Assembly (NCBI RefSeq): GCF_030814655.1
Contig: NZ_JAUSVK010000001.1
Span: 2,871,501 to 2,935,500, forward strand
DNA from: Labrys monachus
Lineage (GTDB): Bacteria > Pseudomonadota > Alphaproteobacteria > Rhizobiales > Labraceae
DNA: 64,000 bases
Direction: 5' to 3'
Position 1 is the stretch's first letter; each line of letters starts with the position of its first letter. Both the position numbers and the translations under genes were made by a program. Positions 33,627 to 43,644 of this stretch are shown here, piece by piece. Under the pieces are notes generated by a model. It saw nothing but the letters and a program-made list of their open reading frames with translations. It was not told the origin of the DNA and did no database searches.

Positions 33627-33994
33627 CGCATCTGTCCTCGATTGATCATGTCGCATCGATAGGCCTCGCCCGCATGGCGCACACTCCGGCGCTTGCTTTC
33701 AATTCCGGCGGAGCGGATGCAGGCAATATAGGGCGGCCCGAGGGGGACGCCAGTCTGTCCAAGGCGCCGCGATGAAAAGCAAAGACGCGACTTTTGCCAT
33801 TCGTGTCTCCTGGGACCGCGGGCGTCTCGCCCATATGCGCTAACATAACGGAAATACCCGCCTTCTCCCTGTTCGGGAGAAGGTCCCGGCAGGGGGATGA
33901 GGGTCTAAACTTCAACGCAGATAGCTCAATAGTCGCGCTGGAATTGCAGAAGTCTAGACCCTCATCCGGCGCTTCGCGCCACCTTCTCCCGCAT

Positions 33995-35582
33995 CAGGCT
34001 GTGCGAGAACTCCGCGCAGTCTTGGATTGTGTCCGGAACCTGTGGGCGAGGAAGATTGATTTCATAGTGGATTTGCTTTGAGGGCTTCCAGGAGGGCTGG
34101 AATGCCCAGGATTGCGGTAACCCGCTTGAGATTGAAGCCCAGGACGGCGAGAGCCAGTTCAGCTTTTGCCTTCTGGAGGCCTCGCAGCAGGAAGCGGGGA
34201 TAGCCCAGCATCCATTTGATGGTGCCGAAGGGATGCTCTGCCAGTTGGCGCCGCTGCTTCATCAGGGTCGGGTTCTCGATGGTGCGCCGATGCATGGCCT
34301 GGCGAGCGTCCTCATAAAGGTGGCGCGTGATCTGCCGGCTCTGAGCCTTGGTGCATTTGGGTTTCAGGGCACAGCCGCCGCAGGCTGTGGTCGAGTAGCG
34401 CTTCTCCTGCTCGGTCTGGGAGATGCAACGAAGCGAGAGGATCTCTCCCGCGGGACAGGTCCAGCTGTCGCTGGCCGCATCATAGGAGAAGGCCTCGCGG
34501 CTGAAGAGGTCGCCATTCCTGGCATTGACGGTCTTTTGGCGAGGAACCGCAGCCGTGATGCCCGCCGATGCGCAGGCCTCGCCCTGCTCGCCATTGGAAT
34601 AGCCGGTATCGGCGACCACGGCGAGGCTTTCCACCTCCAGCGCCTCCTTGGCCGCCTGAGCCATCGGCAGGAGCTGGGCCTGATCGTTGCAATCGTTGAT
34701 CAAGTCGAACTGCGCAATCAGGCCATGCTTGTCATCCACGACGCTCTGGGCATTGTAGGCAACCTGATGGCCGTGGCGGGCTGTCTTCATCAGGCGTGCC
34801 TCGTCCTCGCCGATCACCTTCTGGCTGAGCCCCGCGGCAGCCAGATCCCGGGCCTGGGCCTGGATCTCCTCGCGTCGCACACGCAGGCTCGCAAGGGCTT
34901 TGGCGACATCCTCCGGTCTGGTTTGAGCCTCGGCCGCGGCCTCCTCGCGATCGGCTTGATCCATCGCCTTCAGATGATCGGCAATCCGAGCGTCGAGCTT
35001 GGCCATCCGCTTCTCCAGTTCCTTGGGCGTGATCACCTTCTTGCGACTGGCAACGGCTTCGATCTTGGTTCCGTCTAGAGCTACCAGCTCTCCACCATAC
35101 AGGGACTGGCCACGGCAGAACCGGATGAAGGATCGGCACACCCCTATGATCGCCTCGACATGCTCCTTGCGGAAATCGGCAATCGTCTTGAAGGAAGGCG
35201 TCACGCGGTTGACCAACCATTGTACCTCGATATTGCGCACGGCTTCCCGTTCGAGGCTGCGGCTGGAGCGTATACGGTTCAGGTAACCATAGACGTACAG
35301 CTTCAGTAGATCGGCAGGCCGATAGGGCGGCCGGCCTGTTGCTTCGGCTTCGACTTTCGAAAATTTCAGCCCATTCAAATCAAGGCCATCGACAAAGGCA
35401 TCGATGACACGCACCGGATGATCACCACAAACAATCTCATCAAGGCTCGAAGCCACCAGAGATCGTTGATAGCGCGATTCTCCAACAACATGTGCCATAA
35501 TGATCCTCCGATACTGTAGAATAACATTACAGCATATTCTAAGTACTTTGGGAATCGCTCGGACGGGTTTTCACACAGCCTG
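33995..35582 (-). mobile_element. Complete IS1182-family insertion sequence
   Basis: The 1,588-bp element has terminal inverted repeats starting CAGGCTGTG, identical at 15 of the first 18 positions. It is flanked by a direct GCAT duplication (33991-33994 and 35583-35586). It carries one intact transposase on the minus strand. The target is the loop of a hairpin (CTCCC-GCAT-GGGAG) within the 210-bp repeat. Intact ends, an intact gene and a clean duplication suggest recent insertion. Confidence 0.92.
34062..35498 (-). CDS. IS1182-family transposase
   Basis: This is a 478-residue DDE transposase. It has the DUF772-type N-terminal domain (GRPPYRPADLLKLYVYGYLN), a first catalytic aspartate at D142 in LVALDGTKIEA, a second in VVADTGYSNGEQ, and the C-terminal glutamate region around AEHPFGTIKWMLGYPRFLL. 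A zinc-finger-like CGGCALKPKC segment precedes that region, as usual in the family. No frameshift or stop is present, so the element is probably active. Confidence 0.95.
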   Translation of the reverse strand: MAHVVGESRYQRSLVASSLDEIVCGDHPVRVIDAFVDGLDLNGLKFSKVEAEATGRPPYRPADLLKLYVYGYLNRIRSSRSLEREAVRNIEVQWLVNRVTPSFKTIADFRKEHVEAIIGVCRSFIRFCRGQSLYGGELVALDGTKIEAVASRKKVITPKELEKRMAKLDARIADHLKAMDQADREEAAAEAQTRPEDVAKALASLRVRREEIQAQARDLAAAGLSQKVIGEDEARLMKTARHGHQVAYNAQSVVDDKHGLIAQFDLINDCNDQAQLLPMAQAAKEALEVESLAVVADTGYSNGEQGEACASAGITAAVPRQKTVNARNGDLFSREAFSYDAASDSWTCPAGEILSLRCISQTEQEKRYSTTACGGCALKPKCTKAQSRQITRHLYEDARQAMHRRTIENPTLMKQRRQLAEHPFGTIKWMLGYPRFLLRGLQKAKAELALAVLGFNLKRVTAILGIPALLEALKANPL

Positions 35583-35645
35583 GCATGGGAGAAGGAAAAT
35601 CGCGCTATTGTCGGCAAAGTTAGCGCATATGGGCGAGACGCCCGC

Positions 35646-36863
35646 TCTGGAAACGCCGCGCTCGAAGGTTGAAACGTTGCGCTTGGGGGTGGCAAGAGCG
35701 GGCGAGACGCCCGCGGTCCCAGGGAAGAACGCCGGGCAGGCGATAGTGCGGCTGGTCATCCCGGATCTGCACCGCACCCCTGCGGGGTGCCGTGCGCACG
35801 GGATGACGGGTGATAGCTCTGCGGGCACGCGTCTTCGTCGCCGCGCCCTGTCCGGGCCGGATTGTGCAAGGGAAGATCGGGGCGACGACGGCTGTTCTGG
35901 TGTCAGCCGTGGTGCGGTGTAGGATCGTGGTCGTGAGGAATCGGGGCCTCGCATGTTGTGCAAGGCCGCCGTCGCCCCTTTCCCGCCAGGCCGGGACGCG
36001 CCAACAGGCAACGCGCCGGAGCCAGGCTCTTTCCCATCGATCCGATCAAGCTTTCGGCCTGAACCCGGACTGCCGGACGGGAGGCATCGCCGGCGCCGGA
36101 GGGCACGGTTCCCTCCATCACCAGTCCTGCCGGACAGGCCACACATCCCGCCACCGCTTCCGGGCCAGGGAAGCCAGTCGGGACGCAAGCCTCACCCACG
36201 GAACGGGCGGGACAGGGGCCTTGGCGGACGGCTTATATCTTCGCCGCACCCCGCCGGCCGGAGCAGCCGGGTCCCCGTGCTGCTGCGGCCGCGGACGCTG
36301 CGGGCCGGGTTTGCCGGCCGCCGGCGTCCGACAAGGCGATCCGGCCTGGAAGGCCGGCGCCTCTCCTGTCTCGCGCGGGATCTGCGGCAGGCCCGAAGGC
36401 GGCCCGATCCCGGCACGTTCCTCATCAAGCCCCGTGTGCAGACCTGACGGCCGGGTGATCGCACACCCGGCGCTACCGGATGTCGGCGGTCCCGGCATTG
36501 CTCGTGAGAGCAATGGGGCGGTCTGCAGCGATCCCTCTCGGCGCCGGCCCAGCCATGGCTTCCAACACCATGGCAAGACGGACAGGCGCCTCGATACGGC
36601 TGGCGCGCCGCAAGCGTAAACCGGGATCGCCCGGAGTGGGTGGAAGGCACGGGGCGGTATCGCGAACCTTGGCCCCGCCGCTCTTCATTCCGAGAGAAAG
36701 TAGGCCATGGGGGAGGGCGGATGTCAAGATTTGTGCGTGATTTGTTCCGAATCTCGAAGGAGAATTCTCGCTGGCCAAGGCTATGGCCCGCTGGATCTCT
36801 CAGCCACCTGAGGCGACCTTTGTCATGAAGGTTCGATCCAACCAACTGTCCGATCAGATCGCG
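35646..36863. other. 1.2-kb intergenic stretch without a supportable gene
   Basis: The first 90 bases carry further palindromic fragments (GGGCGAGACGCCCGC at about 35705-35720) related to the repeat arms next to the IS. The remainder is GC-rich with overlapping open frames on both strands, but their translations are rich in Arg, Pro and Gly without domain signatures or ribosome binding sites. It may be decayed sequence between the IS and the AT-richer gene block that follows. Confidence 0.6.
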
Positions 36864-37913
36864 TCAGGACTGGAACGGGATTGTGCGCCCAGGCTGCCGA
36901 GCCTGTTCACGCGTATATGAAACTCCGTGTACCTTGATCCCACGACCATCGAGTAATGTGATGACCCCCCCCTTGTTCGACAGCGTCATTGGTGCTTCGA
37001 TATCCACCACCCTCGTTATACCGGGAGCGATCACACCCCGAAGGCGGATTGCATTTTTTTGCTTGTCTTTCAGTGTCCAGTCGGTGACGTCGACGGGACA
37101 ATCGGATGTGTTCAACAGCGTAACGGTCTCATGCTCCGGCGTCCGAATATCGTTCACATAGGCGGCGACGATCCGTACCAGCCCGTCAGGTACATCGAGC
37201 GTGGGAATTCCATCGCGACTGACGGGAGTATGAGGAAGATGCGGATGCTCTGGATCGGCGTGGATTATGGGCCGCGCCGTCGTATCGTCCGAATGCCATG
37301 CCTGACTTTGAAATTTCAAAAAGGCCGCCACCCACTGTTTTTCGGTTGGGAAGGAAAAGACTAGTCCCCCATCCTGCCAAGGACCGTTGTCCTGATCATG
37401 TTTGCCTTTGGGATTTCCTTGATTCATATGGATGTCGTGGATCCCCCGCCCCGGTTTGAAACCGAAATATGCGTCGGCCTTATTCTCCTCGGGGCCCCAG
37501 GCTGCCCCAAACGCATAGATGACAGCAAATTCGTCGGACATGGCGCGCTGCACGTATGCATCGATCTTCTCATTCAGGTCGTTGTCCGGACCGGATGCTG
37601 ACATCGGGAGAGGCCTGAATTCCCAAGGCTGCGCAAGGTTTCCGCGAATGAAATCAATCGCCGCACCACCTGGCGCGCTCGCAATTGCAGTCAATCCGCC
37701 TGGCAAGGATTCCCAGACTTCAGTGATCGGATGTTCGAAGTGTGAGTTGACGATAAATTCGACTTCGCTCCCATCATCCGAGCGAACATTGATGGCGATG
37801 CGAAACAGGACGCCATTGGCAGACACGAGCACTTGGTAATGCGGGTTTTTGCCCGTCGCGATGCGGCTACTGATCGGACGCCCCTTGAGGGCGGAATAAT
37901 TTTCGATTGGCAT
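36864..37913 (-). CDS. DUF2278 (YukJ-like) protein with C-terminal lamin-tail domain
   Basis: The 349-residue protein has an N-terminal DUF2278 domain, beginning MPIENYSALKGRPISSRIA, with IHDIHMNQGNPKGKH in the centre, a His/Asp/Asn-rich stretch typical of that family. The final 100 residues look like a lamin-tail (Ig-like) domain, with VTLLNTSDCPVDVTDWTLKD and GVITLLDGRGIKVHGVSY. Neither domain's role is settled; bacterial lamin-tail domains often accompany nucleases or other phosphoesterases. It lies 7 nt after the phospholipase D-like gene, so the two form an operon. Base composition is noticeably more AT-rich than the flanks. Confidence 0.85.
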   Translation of the reverse strand: MPIENYSALKGRPISSRIATGKNPHYQVLVSANGVLFRIAINVRSDDGSEVEFIVNSHFEHPITEVWESLPGGLTAIASAPGGAAIDFIRGNLAQPWEFRPLPMSASGPDNDLNEKIDAYVQRAMSDEFAVIYAFGAAWGPEENKADAYFGFKPGRGIHDIHMNQGNPKGKHDQDNGPWQDGGLVFSFPTEKQWVAAFLKFQSQAWHSDDTTARPIIHADPEHPHLPHTPVSRDGIPTLDVPDGLVRIVAAYVNDIRTPEHETVTLLNTSDCPVDVTDWTLKDKQKNAIRLRGVIAPGITRVVDIEAPMTLSNKGGVITLLDGRGIKVHGVSYTREQARQPGRTIPFQS

Positions 37914-37920
37914 AACCTAG

Positions 37921-39930
37921 TCACTCCGTAAAATAGCTCGCCAGGCGCCGGGATGCGGTCTTCTGCCAGCTATCGCTCGTTTTGAGAAATCCTTCCCAGC
38001 CGGTTTGATCTGGGCCGGCCGTACTTTGCTGCCCCTTCTGTTTGGCAGCGATCTCGGCCTCCGTTGCCCGGAATTTGTAATGATCGTAGACGTCGAGCAC
38101 ATGTGCGGCATAAGCCTGTGCAATCCCCTGATGCCCTCGCACGATCACCAAATTCTCATCGTTGCTGTAAGAGGCTTTGTAGCCTTGGTTATGACTGCCA
38201 AATGCAACAACGCAACTTTGCGAATCCATTGGATCAATCACCAATATCTTGTCGTGAATGATGGCGCCGGCGCCATTGCCGAATGCTGTCAATCGTTCAT
38301 TCAATTTGAAGTCGCCCAGGCCCTGAACGAGGTTTTTGTCGGTCAACGCGGTGGCCCTCACGACGGAGACGCCAGCTTGCTGAAATACATGCGGGGACCA
38401 GGCGGGTATCTTAGGCCCCGATCCTGCTTTGCGGCCGGGTTGATAGAGCCACATAGCCTTCGGATCAGATATGGCTCCGATCACCTCAAGCGAGGTGTCC
38501 CTTATTCCTAGATTGATCGCCTCTCCCACGATCGAATTAGTACCGCCTTGGGAAGGATAAAATATGAGAAAAAAGATCGAGCGCTTGGCTTGTCGCATGA
38601 ATGAAAATAGCCGTGCCATATCCGGAGGGACAGAGGGAGCTTTGGTCTTGCTCGTAGTTGGCTGAGAAGCCCCCGGAACATTTGGTGAGTACCAAGCTTC
38701 CAATGTGGCTCCGCCACTGAACGTTGTGGTTACTGGAGCGAGATCAAATTTCTTCAGGTCGTCACCTTGACCAGCACCGGTCGCGACAGCGTTCAAGGGT
38801 ACAGGATCCATTTGCTTGTCCTTGAACATTTGGTCCCAATAGGAAACATAGCCTGCGGCGACGACCGCGTCGTCGATGACGGTACAGTTATTGCTTTGTC
38901 CAGCGATGCCGGTCGAGGTCCAGTTCGTCGAACCAGTCAATACTTGCGTAGCAGTTTGAGGATTCGGCATGAAGACAACGAATTTGTTGTGACCGATATG
39001 ACCGGAACCGTTGAACATCCGATTGATCAACCGAAATTTCGAACCCGGCCGATCTGCAATGGCGCGCAACTTCTGACGTGCGGATGAGTTGCGGGTATCG
39101 TAGATAGTTTGTTTTGCTCCGTCCGATCCTTCAATTGAGGCGTCGCCGGCATCCGAAAGGATAAGGTCAATTCGGTCGGCGTGGACAGCAAGCAGGTCGA
39201 CCAGTTCCTTGTCATCGAGTTCATAGAGTGCCGCCCGGAAACGGCCTCCGACATTCTTTTCGAAGAAATCATGCATAAGCGGGATGACATCACCCGTTAA
39301 ATAATTGCGCAGCCAGTCACCAGGTGTGGTGAGATGCCTAACGAGTTCGCCGTCCTCCACCTTGCCATCTTCCGACAGCACATTGCGCAGGAACTGTGTG
39401 GATAGGATGCCATTGGTAAACGTCGCGCGGAAGGGCGGTCGCAACGCCGTCACTTCTACGACATTGGTAAAGGCCGCAGGCGTTAGGTAACCTAGGGCCC
39501 TCGGTGGGCCATCGTATGTATGAGCTACGACTTGTCCGGTGGCACGATCGATGTGACTTTCCGGGATGGTTTCGACTTTCTCAAGCCCGGGTTTGAGATC
39601 ACCCACGGCGCGAATTTGGTACCGAACACGCTCATTATCGGGGCGTCGCCCAGAGCCATCGCGCTTCTTGCGCAACGTAAGATCGCGCCAGGTGAATTTT
39701 TGTATCGGCCAAATAGTTGTATTCTGTGCTTGCCATTTCGTATTGTGTTGACCAAGGAACGGTACATAGGAGGCGAGCGGCCGTCGGAGTGTAACGTCAC
39801 CTCCCTCGTCGAGGTACTCGCGCACGATGTTAAACCCGAGGCATCCCTCAACAAGATCATGATCAAGACGCCAAGCCAGAAATCCCACTTCATTGTTCGA
39901 AAACGCGATAGCCTTGACGATACTTACCAT
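37921..39930 (-). CDS. Phospholipase D-like protein with two HKD motifs
   Basis: The 669-residue protein has a unique N-terminal 200 residues followed by two PLD phosphohydrolase halves. The first HKD motif (H314, K316 in GHNKFVVFM) lacks the usual aspartate, while the second (H559, K561, D566 in IHDKILVID) is complete. Both are followed by the GS-x-N signature (TGSTNW, FGSHNQ). The family includes lipases, nucleases and phosphatidyltransferases. I see no signal peptide. The ATG at 39930 has AAGGA upstream; a longer start at 39966 is possible. It is paired with the DUF2278/lamin-tail gene. Confidence 0.88.
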   Translation of the reverse strand: MVSIVKAIAFSNNEVGFLAWRLDHDLVEGCLGFNIVREYLDEGGDVTLRRPLASYVPFLGQHNTKWQAQNTTIWPIQKFTWRDLTLRKKRDGSGRRPDNERVRYQIRAVGDLKPGLEKVETIPESHIDRATGQVVAHTYDGPPRALGYLTPAAFTNVVEVTALRPPFRATFTNGILSTQFLRNVLSEDGKVEDGELVRHLTTPGDWLRNYLTGDVIPLMHDFFEKNVGGRFRAALYELDDKELVDLLAVHADRIDLILSDAGDASIEGSDGAKQTIYDTRNSSARQKLRAIADRPGSKFRLINRMFNGSGHIGHNKFVVFMPNPQTATQVLTGSTNWTSTGIAGQSNNCTVIDDAVVAAGYVSYWDQMFKDKQMDPVPLNAVATGAGQGDDLKKFDLAPVTTTFSGGATLEAWYSPNVPGASQPTTSKTKAPSVPPDMARLFSFMRQAKRSIFFLIFYPSQGGTNSIVGEAINLGIRDTSLEVIGAISDPKAMWLYQPGRKAGSGPKIPAWSPHVFQQAGVSVVRATALTDKNLVQGLGDFKLNERLTAFGNGAGAIIHDKILVIDPMDSQSCVVAFGSHNQGYKASYSNDENLVIVRGHQGIAQAYAAHVLDVYDHYKFRATEAEIAAKQKGQQSTAGPDQTGWEGFLKTSDSWQKTASRRLASYFTE

Positions 39931-40143
39931 TTTTCTTATCCTTGCCACGAAGATGAAACGACCCATCAGAAATATCGCATTATTTATTCCGAATAAATTT
40001 ATTTAAAACCAAAATTTTACAAAGTTTTATTTCTTTATATTAATAATACTTAGTTTCTCAGATGAGAAAATACAGACTGCGTATTCATGGCGCGACTTGA
40101 CTTCGCGGAGTAACGCGGGATCGAAGGAATATTGGATTCCTAT

Positions 40144-41226
40144 TCAGGTTTCAGCATCAAATTGCGCGGTATCCGCGACATAGCGATCGAAATCACGCCC
40201 AACCCACTCGGCGGCTTCCTTGGCGCTTTTGTATAGCCAGTCTGCCGACCGCTTCTCTAGGTCCCCTTTGATATCTCTGGTGTCTTCGTCACGAACACCG
40301 TGGATTGCAGCGAGATCGGCTCCCATGGCGGTGAGCAGGCGCTCGTCGAGGTCAGCGCCTTCCGGGGCGCCGAGGTCGATCTTACGGGAGTCGGCCGCAA
40401 GTCGGCGAGCTACGAATTGATCCTTGTAAAGCGCCAAGAAAGGATCGGGGGCCCGAAAACGTCCTTGTGCAAGCTTCAGGAAATTCGAAGGATGCCCTGG
40501 TTGCCTATGCGCCCAGTGCCAAGCGGATGGCACGACAGCCTTGGCTTCCCGAACGATGCGACCGCCGCACCATTTTGCCACCACGATATAGCGAGGTCTC
40601 CCGAGACTGCCCCCTCCCTTGGTGCGCGGAGCGAAATGTTCAATGCAGGCGTTGCCGGGTAGGGCAAACCGCAGCGCCTCCTGTGCGAGTGCTGGCGGTG
40701 AGCCGTGGCGAAGATCCTCGATATCCCGCCAAAAGCGTTCACGGTCGCTATCGGAGCAGGCAATCCTACTCCGCATCCAAGTAGCACGCTCATCGAGCAA
40801 GGTCGGACGGCGATTGTCCAGCCCCTTCTCGTAGCCGAACAGGACGGCCTCGCAAGTGCGGCGGGACGAAAGCGCGAGGTTGGGCGTGAGCCTGACGCTC
40901 GTGGCAAGCCGCAGCAGGTCAAGAGTATAGGGCATGACTGCGGCTTCATCGAAATCGTTCACACCCCAGACAAGCCGACCGTCAGCATCGCGCCAGGTTC
41001 CAAAATTCTCCACGTGGATGTCGCCGACTGCAAGAACAGCAGGCGCATCGATCAGCCCGGGACAAACCCCTTCGATTGATCTTGCCCAGCGAAAGTATGT
41101 GGCTCTCAGAAAGACAAAAGAATTACGCCGCATACGACAATGCTTTCGCTCAAGGTCCGCCTCGACCACATCGCATTGCTTGCGGAGCCAAGTTTCGTAT
41201 TCGGCATTGACATGCATGAACGACAT
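40144..41226 (-). CDS. DUF2252-family protein (kinase-like fold)
   Basis: The 360-residue protein matches the DUF2252 family by GDIHVENFGTWRDADG and VNDFDEAAVMPYTLDLLRLA, which resemble the catalytic HxxN and DxD loops of aminoglycoside phosphotransferase-like kinases. The substrate is unknown for the family. The ATG at 41226 is preceded by AGGTTCC, a weak site, and a second ATG lies at 41217. It lies 213 nt upstream of the PLD gene on the same strand, separated by a very AT-rich spacer, so the three genes may form one unit. Confidence 0.85.
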   Translation of the reverse strand: MSFMHVNAEYETWLRKQCDVVEADLERKHCRMRRNSFVFLRATYFRWARSIEGVCPGLIDAPAVLAVGDIHVENFGTWRDADGRLVWGVNDFDEAAVMPYTLDLLRLATSVRLTPNLALSSRRTCEAVLFGYEKGLDNRRPTLLDERATWMRSRIACSDSDRERFWRDIEDLRHGSPPALAQEALRFALPGNACIEHFAPRTKGGGSLGRPRYIVVAKWCGGRIVREAKAVVPSAWHWAHRQPGHPSNFLKLAQGRFRAPDPFLALYKDQFVARRLAADSRKIDLGAPEGADLDERLLTAMGADLAAIHGVRDEDTRDIKGDLEKRSADWLYKSAKEAAEWVGRDFDRYVADTAQFDAET

Positions 41227-42132
41227 GGAACCTCACGGGTAGGCGAAACATTAATATTTATTTAATAGGTATAGAAACATGAATATAAACATCCGCCGCG
41301 ATACAGGTACTTTAATTTGTCGATTGGTTTATAAAAATCAGTGGGTAGCGAAGCATTTCTCCGAGTATATTTATCTCGAATTACACGATATTCTGGCTCT
41401 GGGAAGCTAATGCAAGCCTCTCTGCACGTCCAATAGTTTTATTTCCCAGCGCAGAGACAAGAAGATACGAGCGGCTGCGAGGATAGCGTGAACGCTGCGA
41501 ATGCCTATTATCCACCGCTACCAAGTTGCTGCAGGATAGAAGGTCTGCGTGAAATATCCGTGAATAATCGACTATACAATATAGAAAGTTGAAAGGGCGT
41601 GTTATAGTGGGTACATAGGCAACGCCTCGTTTCCCTTCCCCACGCATCAAACCGCACGTGCGGTTTTCCCGCATCCGGCTTTCCGACAGACTTCATTGCA
41701 GGCTCACTGTGGTGGCGTTCGGCGTCGTGGTGAGATGTTTGACGCCGAGTGTCGCGAAGATTTTTCCCCAGGGGGCCGCGTTCCTCGTCCACTTTCCTTG
41801 TGCCGCTTGGCAAGGAAACGTCTGACGCGATCGCAGACGTGCCGATCGATGGCCCGACAGGCCGCAGGCCGAGCGCCATAGCGAAGATGTGGGACCTCAC
41901 GACAAGGACCTCCCTTTCGGCCGCGGCAGCAGCCCCCAACGGCGAACGCCATTCCGAAGGCGCTCTCGCCCGTCAAGCCGCCGCCTACTCCCCTCCGGCG
42001 CAATTTCCCTCGTCGATCCGCCGATTGTTCCGCAGAGGTCTTTGACAGCTCGCCCGGAGTTCCCGATAACAGACGAAATCGGTCGGAGTACCGAGGAATC
42101 GCCGGCACGATCCGGCACCGGGAGGATGCGCC
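41227..42132. other. 0.9-kb gap: AT-rich tail, intron remnant and operon leader
   Basis: Positions 41227-41600 are AT-rich, with no supportable gene, and probably mark the edge of the acquired DUF2252/PLD/DUF2278 block. A group II intron-like fragment occupies 41607-41707. From 41708 to 42132 the composition returns to GC-rich and the sequence leads into the sugar ABC operon, where I see no coding sequence and no convincing promoter. A good ribosome binding site (GGGAGG) precedes the ABC ATPase. Confidence 0.6.
41607..41707 (-). ncRNA. Group II intron 3'-end remnant (domain V-like)
   Basis: On the minus strand, positions 41682-41649 form a 34-nt unit beginning AAAGCCGGATGCGGG and ending CACGTGCGGTTT. 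This has the length, the AGC catalytic triad, the pairing of AAGCCG with CGGTTT, and the GCGG/CCGC upper stem expected of group II intron domain V. The flanking bases on both sides also resemble the region around domains V-VI of bacterial introns. No reverse transcriptase gene is present, so it is a relic. Confidence 0.55.
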
Positions 42133-43644
42133 ATGCAGGGGGAGGGGACTCTCCGTTTCGAGGACGTCGTCAAGACGTTCGGCGGCACGCGCGCGCTGAA
42201 GGGCGTCAGCCTCGATGTCCGCCGAGGCGAGGTCGTCGCGCTCCTCGGCGAGAACGGCGCCGGCAAATCCACCCTCATCAAGATCCTCGGCGGCATCTTC
42301 CGGGCAGACAGCGGCACCATCACCATCGGCGGCGAGCCCTATCGCCACCGCGTGCAGGCGCGCGGCGAGCGCCAGAGCGTCGCCTTCATCCACCAGGACC
42401 TCGGCCTCGTCGAATGGATGACGGTGGCCGAGAACATGAGCCTGCCGCAGGGCTTTTCCAGCCATGGCTGGTCGGGCCTGTTCCGCCTGATCGACTGGCG
42501 CCAGGCCGAGCGCCGGGCCGAGGCCGCGCTGAAGCTGGTCGGCTGCGACATCGACCCGACCATGCGGGTGCACAGCCTCAGCCGCACCGAGAAATCGCTC
42601 GTCGCCATCGCCCGCGCTCTGGTGGTCGACTGCGATTTCCTGGTGCTGGACGAGCCGACCGCGAGCCTGCCCGCCGACGAGGTGGAGCGCCTGTTCGAGG
42701 CGATCCGCCGGCTGCGCGCGCGCGGCGTCGGCATGATCTATGTCTCGCACCGCCTCGACGAGATCTTCCGCATCGCCGACCGGGTCGTGGTGATGCGCGA
42801 CGGGCTCAAGGTCGGCGAGAAGCCGGTCTCGGAGACGACGCCGGACGAACTGGTGAGCCTCATCGTCGGGCGCTCGACGCTCGAACTCTTCCGCAAGGCG
42901 GACTGGCATTCCGGCCCGGTCCGCGTCGCGGTGCGCGACGTGGTGACGCCCTCGGCCGGGCCGGTGAGCTTCGAGGTGCGCCAGGGCGAGCTCCTCGGCC
43001 TCGTCGGCCTGCGCGGCGCCGGGCATGAGGAGATCGGGCGCGCCTTGTTCGGCGCCGTGCCGCATCGCGGCACCATCCTGCTCGACGGCGCGGTTCCGGA
43101 CCTGTCCTCGCCCCGCACCGCGCTGAAGGCGGGCATCGGCCTCGTCGCCCGCGACCGCATGGAGGAATCGCTCGCTCCCTCGCTCACCATCCGCGAGAAC
43201 GCCTATCTCAATCCGGCGGCGACCGGGCGCGGCCTGTTCTCGCCGCTGTCGCCCGCCGCCGAGGCCCGCCGGGCGAGCGCGCTCGGCGTCACCGTCGGCC
43301 TCAGGCCCAACGATCCCGACCTGCCGATCGAGGGCCTGTCCGGCGGCAACCAGCAGAAGGTGGTGGTCGGGCGCTGGCTCGCCACCGGCCGGCGCCTGCT
43401 GGTGGCGGAGGACCCCACCGCCGGCGTCGATGTCGGGGCCAAGGCGGAGATCTACCGGCTGATCGCCCGAGCCCTGGAGGAGGGACTGGCGGTCGTCGTG
43501 GTCTCCACCGACTTCGAGGAGATCGCCCATATCTGCCACCGCACCCTGGTGTTCAACCGGGGCCGGATCATCGCGGAGCTTTCGGGCTCCGGCCTCACCA
43601 CCGAAGCGGTGATCACCGCGGCCTCCGCATCGGAAGCGGCCTGA
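42133..43644 (+). CDS. Sugar ABC transporter ATPase, RbsA type (two ATPase domains)
   Basis: The 503-residue protein has two fused ATPase domains, as in ribose/xylose-type importers. The first is complete, with Walker A GENGAGKST and Walker B FLVLDEPTASLP. The second is degenerate at its Walker A but has the signature LSGGNQQKVVVGRWL. It precedes a permease and a periplasmic binding protein in one operon. The sugar cannot be identified from the ATPase. Confidence 0.95.
   Translation: MQGEGTLRFEDVVKTFGGTRALKGVSLDVRRGEVVALLGENGAGKSTLIKILGGIFRADSGTITIGGEPYRHRVQARGERQSVAFIHQDLGLVEWMTVAENMSLPQGFSSHGWSGLFRLIDWRQAERRAEAALKLVGCDIDPTMRVHSLSRTEKSLVAIARALVVDCDFLVLDEPTASLPADEVERLFEAIRRLRARGVGMIYVSHRLDEIFRIADRVVVMRDGLKVGEKPVSETTPDELVSLIVGRSTLELFRKADWHSGPVRVAVRDVVTPSAGPVSFEVRQGELLGLVGLRGAGHEEIGRALFGAVPHRGTILLDGAVPDLSSPRTALKAGIGLVARDRMEESLAPSLTIRENAYLNPAATGRGLFSPLSPAAEARRASALGVTVGLRPNDPDLPIEGLSGGNQQKVVVGRWLATGRRLLVAEDPTAGVDVGAKAEIYRLIARALEEGLAVVVVSTDFEEIAHICHRTLVFNRGRIIAELSGSGLTTEAVITAASASEAA

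Follow-up and report, generated by a model that had tools for sequence, protein, structure and literature searches.

A foreign gene block of Labrys monachus and the recurrent pairing of its PLD-fold gene with DUF2278 and DUF2252 genes

The question raised by this locus is whether three adjacent genes of low GC content in Labrys monachus, encoding a DUF2278 protein, a PLD-fold protein and a DUF2252 protein, make up one functional system and, if so, what that system would act on. The window is the whole stretch of DNA that was analysed, 64,000 nucleotides of contig NZ_JAUSVK010000001.1 (positions 2,871,501 to 2,935,500), and the block is its positions 36864-41226, where the ORF list holds three intact genes, all on the minus strand. 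The features are as follows:

33982-34010 and 35567-35595: putative IS1182 terminal repeats, a repeat pair 79% complementary
34062-35498, minus strand: IS1182 transposase gene, flanking the block (NCBIfam IS1182, E 2.4e-114, 382.9 bits against a cut-off of 270)
36864-37913, minus strand: DUF2278 protein with a C-terminal lamin-tail-like domain, 349 aa (Pfam DUF2278, E 6.8e-67)
37914-37920, minus strand: intergenic gap of 7 nt between PLD, the upstream gene, and DUF2278
37921-39966, minus strand: two-HKD PLD-fold protein, 681 aa as listed (Pfam PLDc_2, E 3.1e-13)
39967-40143, minus strand: AT-rich spacer of 177 nt between DUF2252 and PLD, a possible promoter
40144-41226, minus strand: short-form DUF2252 protein, 360 aa (Pfam DUF2252, E 9.2e-26)
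41606-41683, minus strand: group II intron domain V (Rfam RF00029, 42.6 bits against a cut-off of 40)

An earlier note on this DNA had described three same-strand genes of distinct base composition, two of them 7 nt apart, lying between an IS1182 element and a group II intron, and this description was borne out, the flanking elements by the profile matches given above. GC content is 0.55 in the DUF2278 gene, 0.53 in the PLD gene and 0.59 in the DUF2252 gene against ~0.67 in the surroundings (1-kb windows outside the block have a mean of 0.669, sd 0.029), while GC3 is 0.57-0.61 in the three genes; six neighbouring genes have values of 0.84-0.95, and the IS1182 gene has 0.71. AT-richness as a trait of the PLD family was rejected, as the mean difference from the flanks was 0.0 over 71 of the 80 genomic PLD loci described below (10 lay below -0.03 and 7 above +0.03). 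The 7-nt gap suggests a single transcript for PLD and DUF2278; promoter-like matches in the 177-nt spacer numbered 5, not clearly above chance (mean 3.6, sd 2.0 in shuffled sequences). No reverse transcriptase gene was noticed in the ORF list beside the intron domain, which would fit a relic. Palindrome-like repeats (GGGCGAGACGCCCGC) are found at 33809-33844 and 35619-35723, on either side of the IS1182 element. The block is also framed by an imperfect inverted pair of 19 nt (33669 and 42121), which was taken as chance because this stretch has 34 inverted pairs in all and each of the two arms is close to the start of a gene.

Comparison with other genomes supports the block being foreign, accessory DNA. 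In 12-kb stretches of three genomes of the same genus (G001, G002 and G004) homology to the window begins only at 42128-42151, which is the start of a sugar-ABC-like gene, so that the block is not at that site in them. DUF2278 was found in 0/4 genomes of the genus, in 11/397 genomes of the order and in 5/385 of the class sample (the own genome being included in the last two counts, and one of the five matches being below the cut-off). The closest relatives found were a DUF2278 from Rhizobium (72% identity), PLDs from Sphingomonas and Lysobacteraceae MAGs and a Rhizobium plasmid (60-61%) and a DUF2252 from Methylosinus (54%). Of the earlier claim of a mobile unit, the part on foreign, accessory DNA is supported; the support does not extend to a unit with ends of its own, and no second trio was found in the samples described below. 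A phage origin was rejected, since neither DUF2278 nor PLD had a match in 50,697 phage records (tblastn, E 1e-5); among viral contigs DUF2278 gave none and PLD 2 weak matches only. Elsewhere in the own genome there is another PLD of this family, more distant in sequence (G000:C1:3574809-3576464), with neither DUF2278 nor DUF2252 near it in the 19 kb fetched. On plasmids of Rhizobium, Agrobacterium and Variovorax (L002, L003, L007, L008, L010, L011 and L013) the PLD or DUF2278 copies are interrupted, be it by stops, by frameshifts or by an insertion, which suggests loss.

If the three genes worked together they might be expected to meet again elsewhere, and here the answer is divided. A PLD scan was made with one genome per species and the best 80 loci were kept, some of them cut by contig ends. 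DUF2278 directly adjoins PLD in three of these (L049, L076 and L077) and is missing from 77/80, some shortened by contig ends; we estimate that ~0.01 such adjacencies would be expected by chance in 80 loci of 20 kb, assuming 12 DUF2278 genes per 397 genomes and 4.5 Mb per genome. Seen from the other side, PLD adjoins DUF2278 at 3/12 places in the order sample of 397 genomes (the window, G749 and G685; the adjacent loci L226 and L227 of this sample come from one genus), and the remaining 9/12 have no close PLD, two of them (L123 and L223) being cut by a contig end. A PLD-like fragment 8 kb from DUF2278 (L230) was left out of this count, and the DUF2278 loci L126-L128 of the class sample are also without a close PLD. 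In plasmids, where 18 of 34 records were inspected, PLD lies within ~3.5 kb in 10/18 DUF2278 loci (L002, L005, L006, L008, L012, L013, L015, L017, L019 and L248), or in 7/15 when L002, L008 and L248, fetched via PLD or phosphatase, are left aside. The DUF2278 gene of L002 carries in its record an AAC(3) resistance label that overlaps the DUF2278 match, and we take this label to be spurious.

DUF2252 was beside PLD in 0/80 genome PLD loci, a partial DUF2252 being found ~10 kb off in L071. Three of 16 DUF2252 regions fetched, from G001, G002 and G003 of the window's genus, have a divergent PLD (the divergent loci L235, L237 and L241 are all from one genus), and none was found at L130 and L131. 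In plasmids, PLD is next to DUF2252 in 2/5 inspected records, out of 23, namely L003, which was fetched via PLD, and L139, which has another PLD subfamily; a patatin gene lies just upstream in L139 and L140. These adjacencies hold in the same loci with a clean DUF2252 profile. Gene calls in unannotated loci came from a home-made GC3 caller and some are wrong. Both PLD-DUF2278 and PLD-DUF2252 are real, recurrent pairs, which is the part of the earlier note's co-occurrence proposal that held. The three-gene system itself did not, as no adjacent trio was met among the best 80 genome PLD loci, in the order sample of 397 genomes or in those plasmid records that were listed or inspected, and the note had itself counted absence elsewhere as refutation. 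In G660 and G775 the three genes are all present, but on different contigs. The idea of one ancestral operon of three genes was likewise rejected, no second trio having been found.

The identities of its members bear on how the PLD-DUF2278 pair arose. Gene order varies and the PLD subfamilies differ; the window DUF2278 is 70-71% identical to the copies in L005, L017 and L019, while the PLDs of these loci are only 19-22% identical to the window PLD, a disparity that points to partner exchange or local re-assembly. The identities of DUF2278 and PLD nevertheless correlate over 14 paired loci, the window included (Mantel r 0.46, p 0.003), a trend from which the window deviates. Judging from these sequences, the pairing has probably been made more than once, and repeated pairing favours a functional tie and disfavours an old fixed unit. 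We infer that the trio of the window is a local assembly and not an ancestral unit.

Other genes also recur around PLD. A histidine-phosphatase-like protein is encoded beside or near it in L008, L011, L027 (1.6 kb from PLD, on the other strand), L030, L051, L065, L247 and L248. Two members scanned gave no Pfam match, and the name rests on the motif RHAEKP. The order is patatin, phosphatase, DUF2278 and PLD in L008 (5429-9689), and PLD, phosphatase and DUF2278 in L248 (6240-9590); L247 (1-8540) has patatin, PLD and phosphatase with other genes interspersed, and in NZ_AP023250 DUF2278 is followed by phosphatase, by coordinates. As a partner, this protein may be more telling than DUF2252. In L012 (8001-16924) DUF2278, DUF3616 and PLD are followed by peptidase-like and metallo-beta-lactamase-like genes, and L014 (4409-10022) has the same set without PLD and in another order. 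These two loci, which share four kinds of gene in a different order, are from Paraburkholderia and Mesorhizobium. The peptidase-like neighbour has an M36 match of 15.6 bits, below the Pfam cut-off of 23.3, and relatives annotated as S8 or M4; the metallo-beta-lactamase-like one reaches 21.1 bits, just below the cut-off of 22.7. A tblastn search (E 0.01) with phosphatase, patatin and the other partner genes revealed no remnants in the window. Among 71 immediate PLD neighbours the commonest Pfam families were DUF2278 and Abhydrolase_3, with 3 each, a rough tally because the 71 were picked by eye from 116 called neighbours (63 dereplicated loci), dropping doubtful calls and keeping all 3 DUF2278 neighbours. 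In L011 (6010-7833) the broken PLD gene is immediately preceded by genes for multiubiquitin, ThiF and DUF6527 proteins.

The domain labels given to the three proteins by the earlier note could be confirmed for DUF2278 and DUF2252, both above the Pfam cut-offs, and for the PLD fold, but not for the lamin tail. The PLD protein more likely starts at the ATG at 39930 and would then have 669 aa rather than 681, because AAGGA lies upstream of this codon and most close relatives align from residue 9-16. Pfam PLDc_2 matches it in two stretches. Its first HKD motif is without the usual Asp (HNKFVVFM), with HxK and GSxxN present, and the second is complete; H326, K328, S346, N348, H571, K573, S591 and N593 are invariant in 43/43 sequences, and D578 occurs in 42/43. 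The predicted model is confident (pLDDT 92.2) and has the PLD fold. Foldseek matched it to phospholipase D 7e0m (E 1.1e-11) and PLD4 8v08 (E 2.9e-11), the ssDNA exonucleases PLD3/PLD4 ranking as high as the phospholipases. The comparison with PLD nucleases suggested earlier gave a match, but phospholipase D matches about as well. With Streptomyces phospholipase D and human PLD3/PLD4 the protein shares the fold, which extends over ~430-550 alignment columns in almost every one of the top 50 matches, as well as both HxK and GSxxN motifs of the two-HKD superfamily. It differs from these enzymes in its low sequence identity (8-14% in the top 50 matches), in an extra N-terminal region rich in beta strands, in the lack of Asp in the first motif and in its genomic partners, DUF2278 and others.

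The DUF2278 protein matches Pfam PF10042 with 225.8 bits against a cut-off of 25, over profile positions 1-205 of 206, and HDIH, Q165, N167 and DG are invariant in 12 sequences, the window included. It shares this full-length match and the HDIH motif with the YukJ family, which Pfam labels uncharacterised, and differs from it by the C-terminal domain and the PLD neighbour. That domain is only LTD-like, because the LTD match (PF00932) scores 24.5 bits (E 3.6e-5), under the cut-off of 34.3. By sequence, no solved relatives of DUF2278 were found; its AlphaFold model is poor (pLDDT 48.9, from only 4 sequences) and every Foldseek match had E >= 0.088. Many of these weak matches are OB-fold proteins (POT1/TPP1, SSB, lysyl-tRNA synthetase), and the OB-like hint that this poor model may give is a lead only. 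Two papers bear on the domain: ExeM is described as an LTD, an OB-like region and an EEP nuclease (PMC6085458), and a lamin-tail domain is present in some bacterial DNases (PMC4486849). What the window protein would have in common with ExeM is an LTD fused to what may be a region for nucleic-acid binding or a hydrolase; unlike it, ExeM is secreted and has an EEP domain, for which Pfam gave no match here, and no secretion signal was seen by eye in any of the three block proteins. The name DUF2278 was absent from the literature searched, papers on YukJ being left aside; no paper there combined a lamin tail domain with phospholipase D and bacteria, and a passage search of the main text of PMC7159879 did not find PLD, HKD or CHAT.

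The DUF2252 protein reaches 91.2 bits against a cut-off of 22.3 (PF10009), its best stretch covering only positions 3-105 of the 392-position profile, from which it differs as a short form. The GDxHxEN and DFD motifs of the family are shared, and the kinase-like motifs proposed in the earlier note are there as GDIHVENFG and NDFDEA; G68, D69, H71, E73, N74, N90, D91 and D93 are invariant in 6 short-form sequences, the window included. A 2022 kinome survey places DUF2252 in the PKinase clan of Pfam, with flipped lobes (PMC9758233).

Taken together, the reading that we favour, with a probability of roughly 0.45, is that of a shuffled cytosolic cassette for phosphodiester processing, directed more likely to lipid than to DNA. 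PLD would cleave a phosphodiester, either cytosolic or on the inner membrane face, and DUF2278-LTD would be its accessory, either as a substrate or membrane adaptor or as a second hydrolase acting through the invariant HDIH. The patatin and phosphatase partners suggest that a phospholipid-like substrate might be dismantled stepwise, its acyl chains by patatin, its head group by PLD and its phosphate by the phosphatase, and DUF2252 could be a separate kinase-like regulator acquired next door. In favour of this are the recurrence of PLD-DUF2278 although DUF2278 is so rare in the order, the partner exchange, the correlated identities, the PLD-DUF2252 adjacencies, the conserved catalytic residues of PLD and the patatin and phosphatase arrangements of L008, L248 and L247. 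Against it are the many PLD loci without DUF2278 and the many DUF2278 places of the order sample without a close PLD, the few independent events (L235, L237 and L241 are of one genus, as are L226 and L227), the high rank of PLD3/PLD4, the poor DUF2278 model, the nuclease genes, either S1/P1-like or non-specific, in the vicinity of some copies and the fact that patatins are common genes.

The best placed of the alternatives, though in our opinion rather unlikely, is nucleic-acid processing, in which a PLD3/PLD4-like nuclease and an OB-like, DNA-contacting DUF2278-LTD would act on incoming or damaged DNA. Complexes of PLD3/PLD4 with ssDNA rank near the top of the structural matches (E 2.9e-11), but phospholipase D structures score about the same; the weak OB-fold matches of DUF2278 come from a poor model, with no E below 0.088. 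The company that lamin-tail domains keep with nucleases, as in ExeM and the DNases cited above, and the nuclease genes near some copies (S1/P1 in L014, a non-specific endonuclease in L247) agree with this reading, whereas the patatin and phosphatase partners would be better explained by lipids.

We consider improbable an anti-phage or conflict cassette, that is a plasmid- or island-borne cytosolic phospholipase or nuclease effector with its accessory protein. The sporadic distribution (11/397 genomes), the many plasmid copies and neighbours such as patatin, CHAT, Fic (PDC-S24) and LmuA-like proteins, together with sub-threshold STAND (a TPR protein) and SLATT matches, would suit it. However, the best PADLOC match was E 0.0087, for PLD, with none for DUF2278 and DUF2252 at E up to 1, some chromosomal DUF2278 loci adjoin ordinary genes (recO, aldo-keto reductase), and phage records held no homologue of DUF2278 or PLD. 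The 71 immediate neighbours matched 102 PADLOC families (E 1e-10) and 71 of 88 distant control genes, also chosen by eye with doubtful calls dropped, matched 37, a rough tally; among the 25 families listed for each, the controls gave mostly kinase-like PD-T4-6 models, one member each. Two of the neighbours to which matches were traced are Fic proteins, and the others are a UvrD helicase, a reverse transcriptase and an LmuA-like protein, all of generic families; Ptu-like matches were not assigned to proteins. The L039 neighbour had its strongest matches to group-II-intron-like reverse transcriptases, and its matches were left out of the defence tally. The excess over the controls is at most slight and suggestive at most, and the evidence for the defence role or context put forward earlier is weak. 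Equally improbable is the absence of any functional link, with three unrelated orphan genes set side by side by accident in a transposon-rich insertion hotspot, as the trio found nowhere else, the flanking IS1182 and intron relic and the relatives in different taxa would allow, because each of the two pairs is found side by side in other genomes too, and the gene order varies.

A more novel reading, to which we give little weight, can be set beside the lipid-directed cassette that we prefer. The genes might belong to an undescribed modular system of Proteobacteria, often plasmid-borne, in which a constant DUF2278 recruits interchangeable PLD enzymes, histidine-phosphatase-like proteins, patatins, DUF3616 or kinase-like DUF2252, and which would serve as an intracellular conflict system degrading lipids or nucleic acids. 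DUF2278 and DUF2252 are both families that Pfam calls uncharacterised. Through its repeated, order-independent tie to a PLD whose catalytic residues are conserved, and in some loci to a phosphatase-like protein as well, DUF2278 acquires its first concrete and testable biochemical context, and the PLD-DUF2252 pairing offers, more weakly, the same kind of context for DUF2252.
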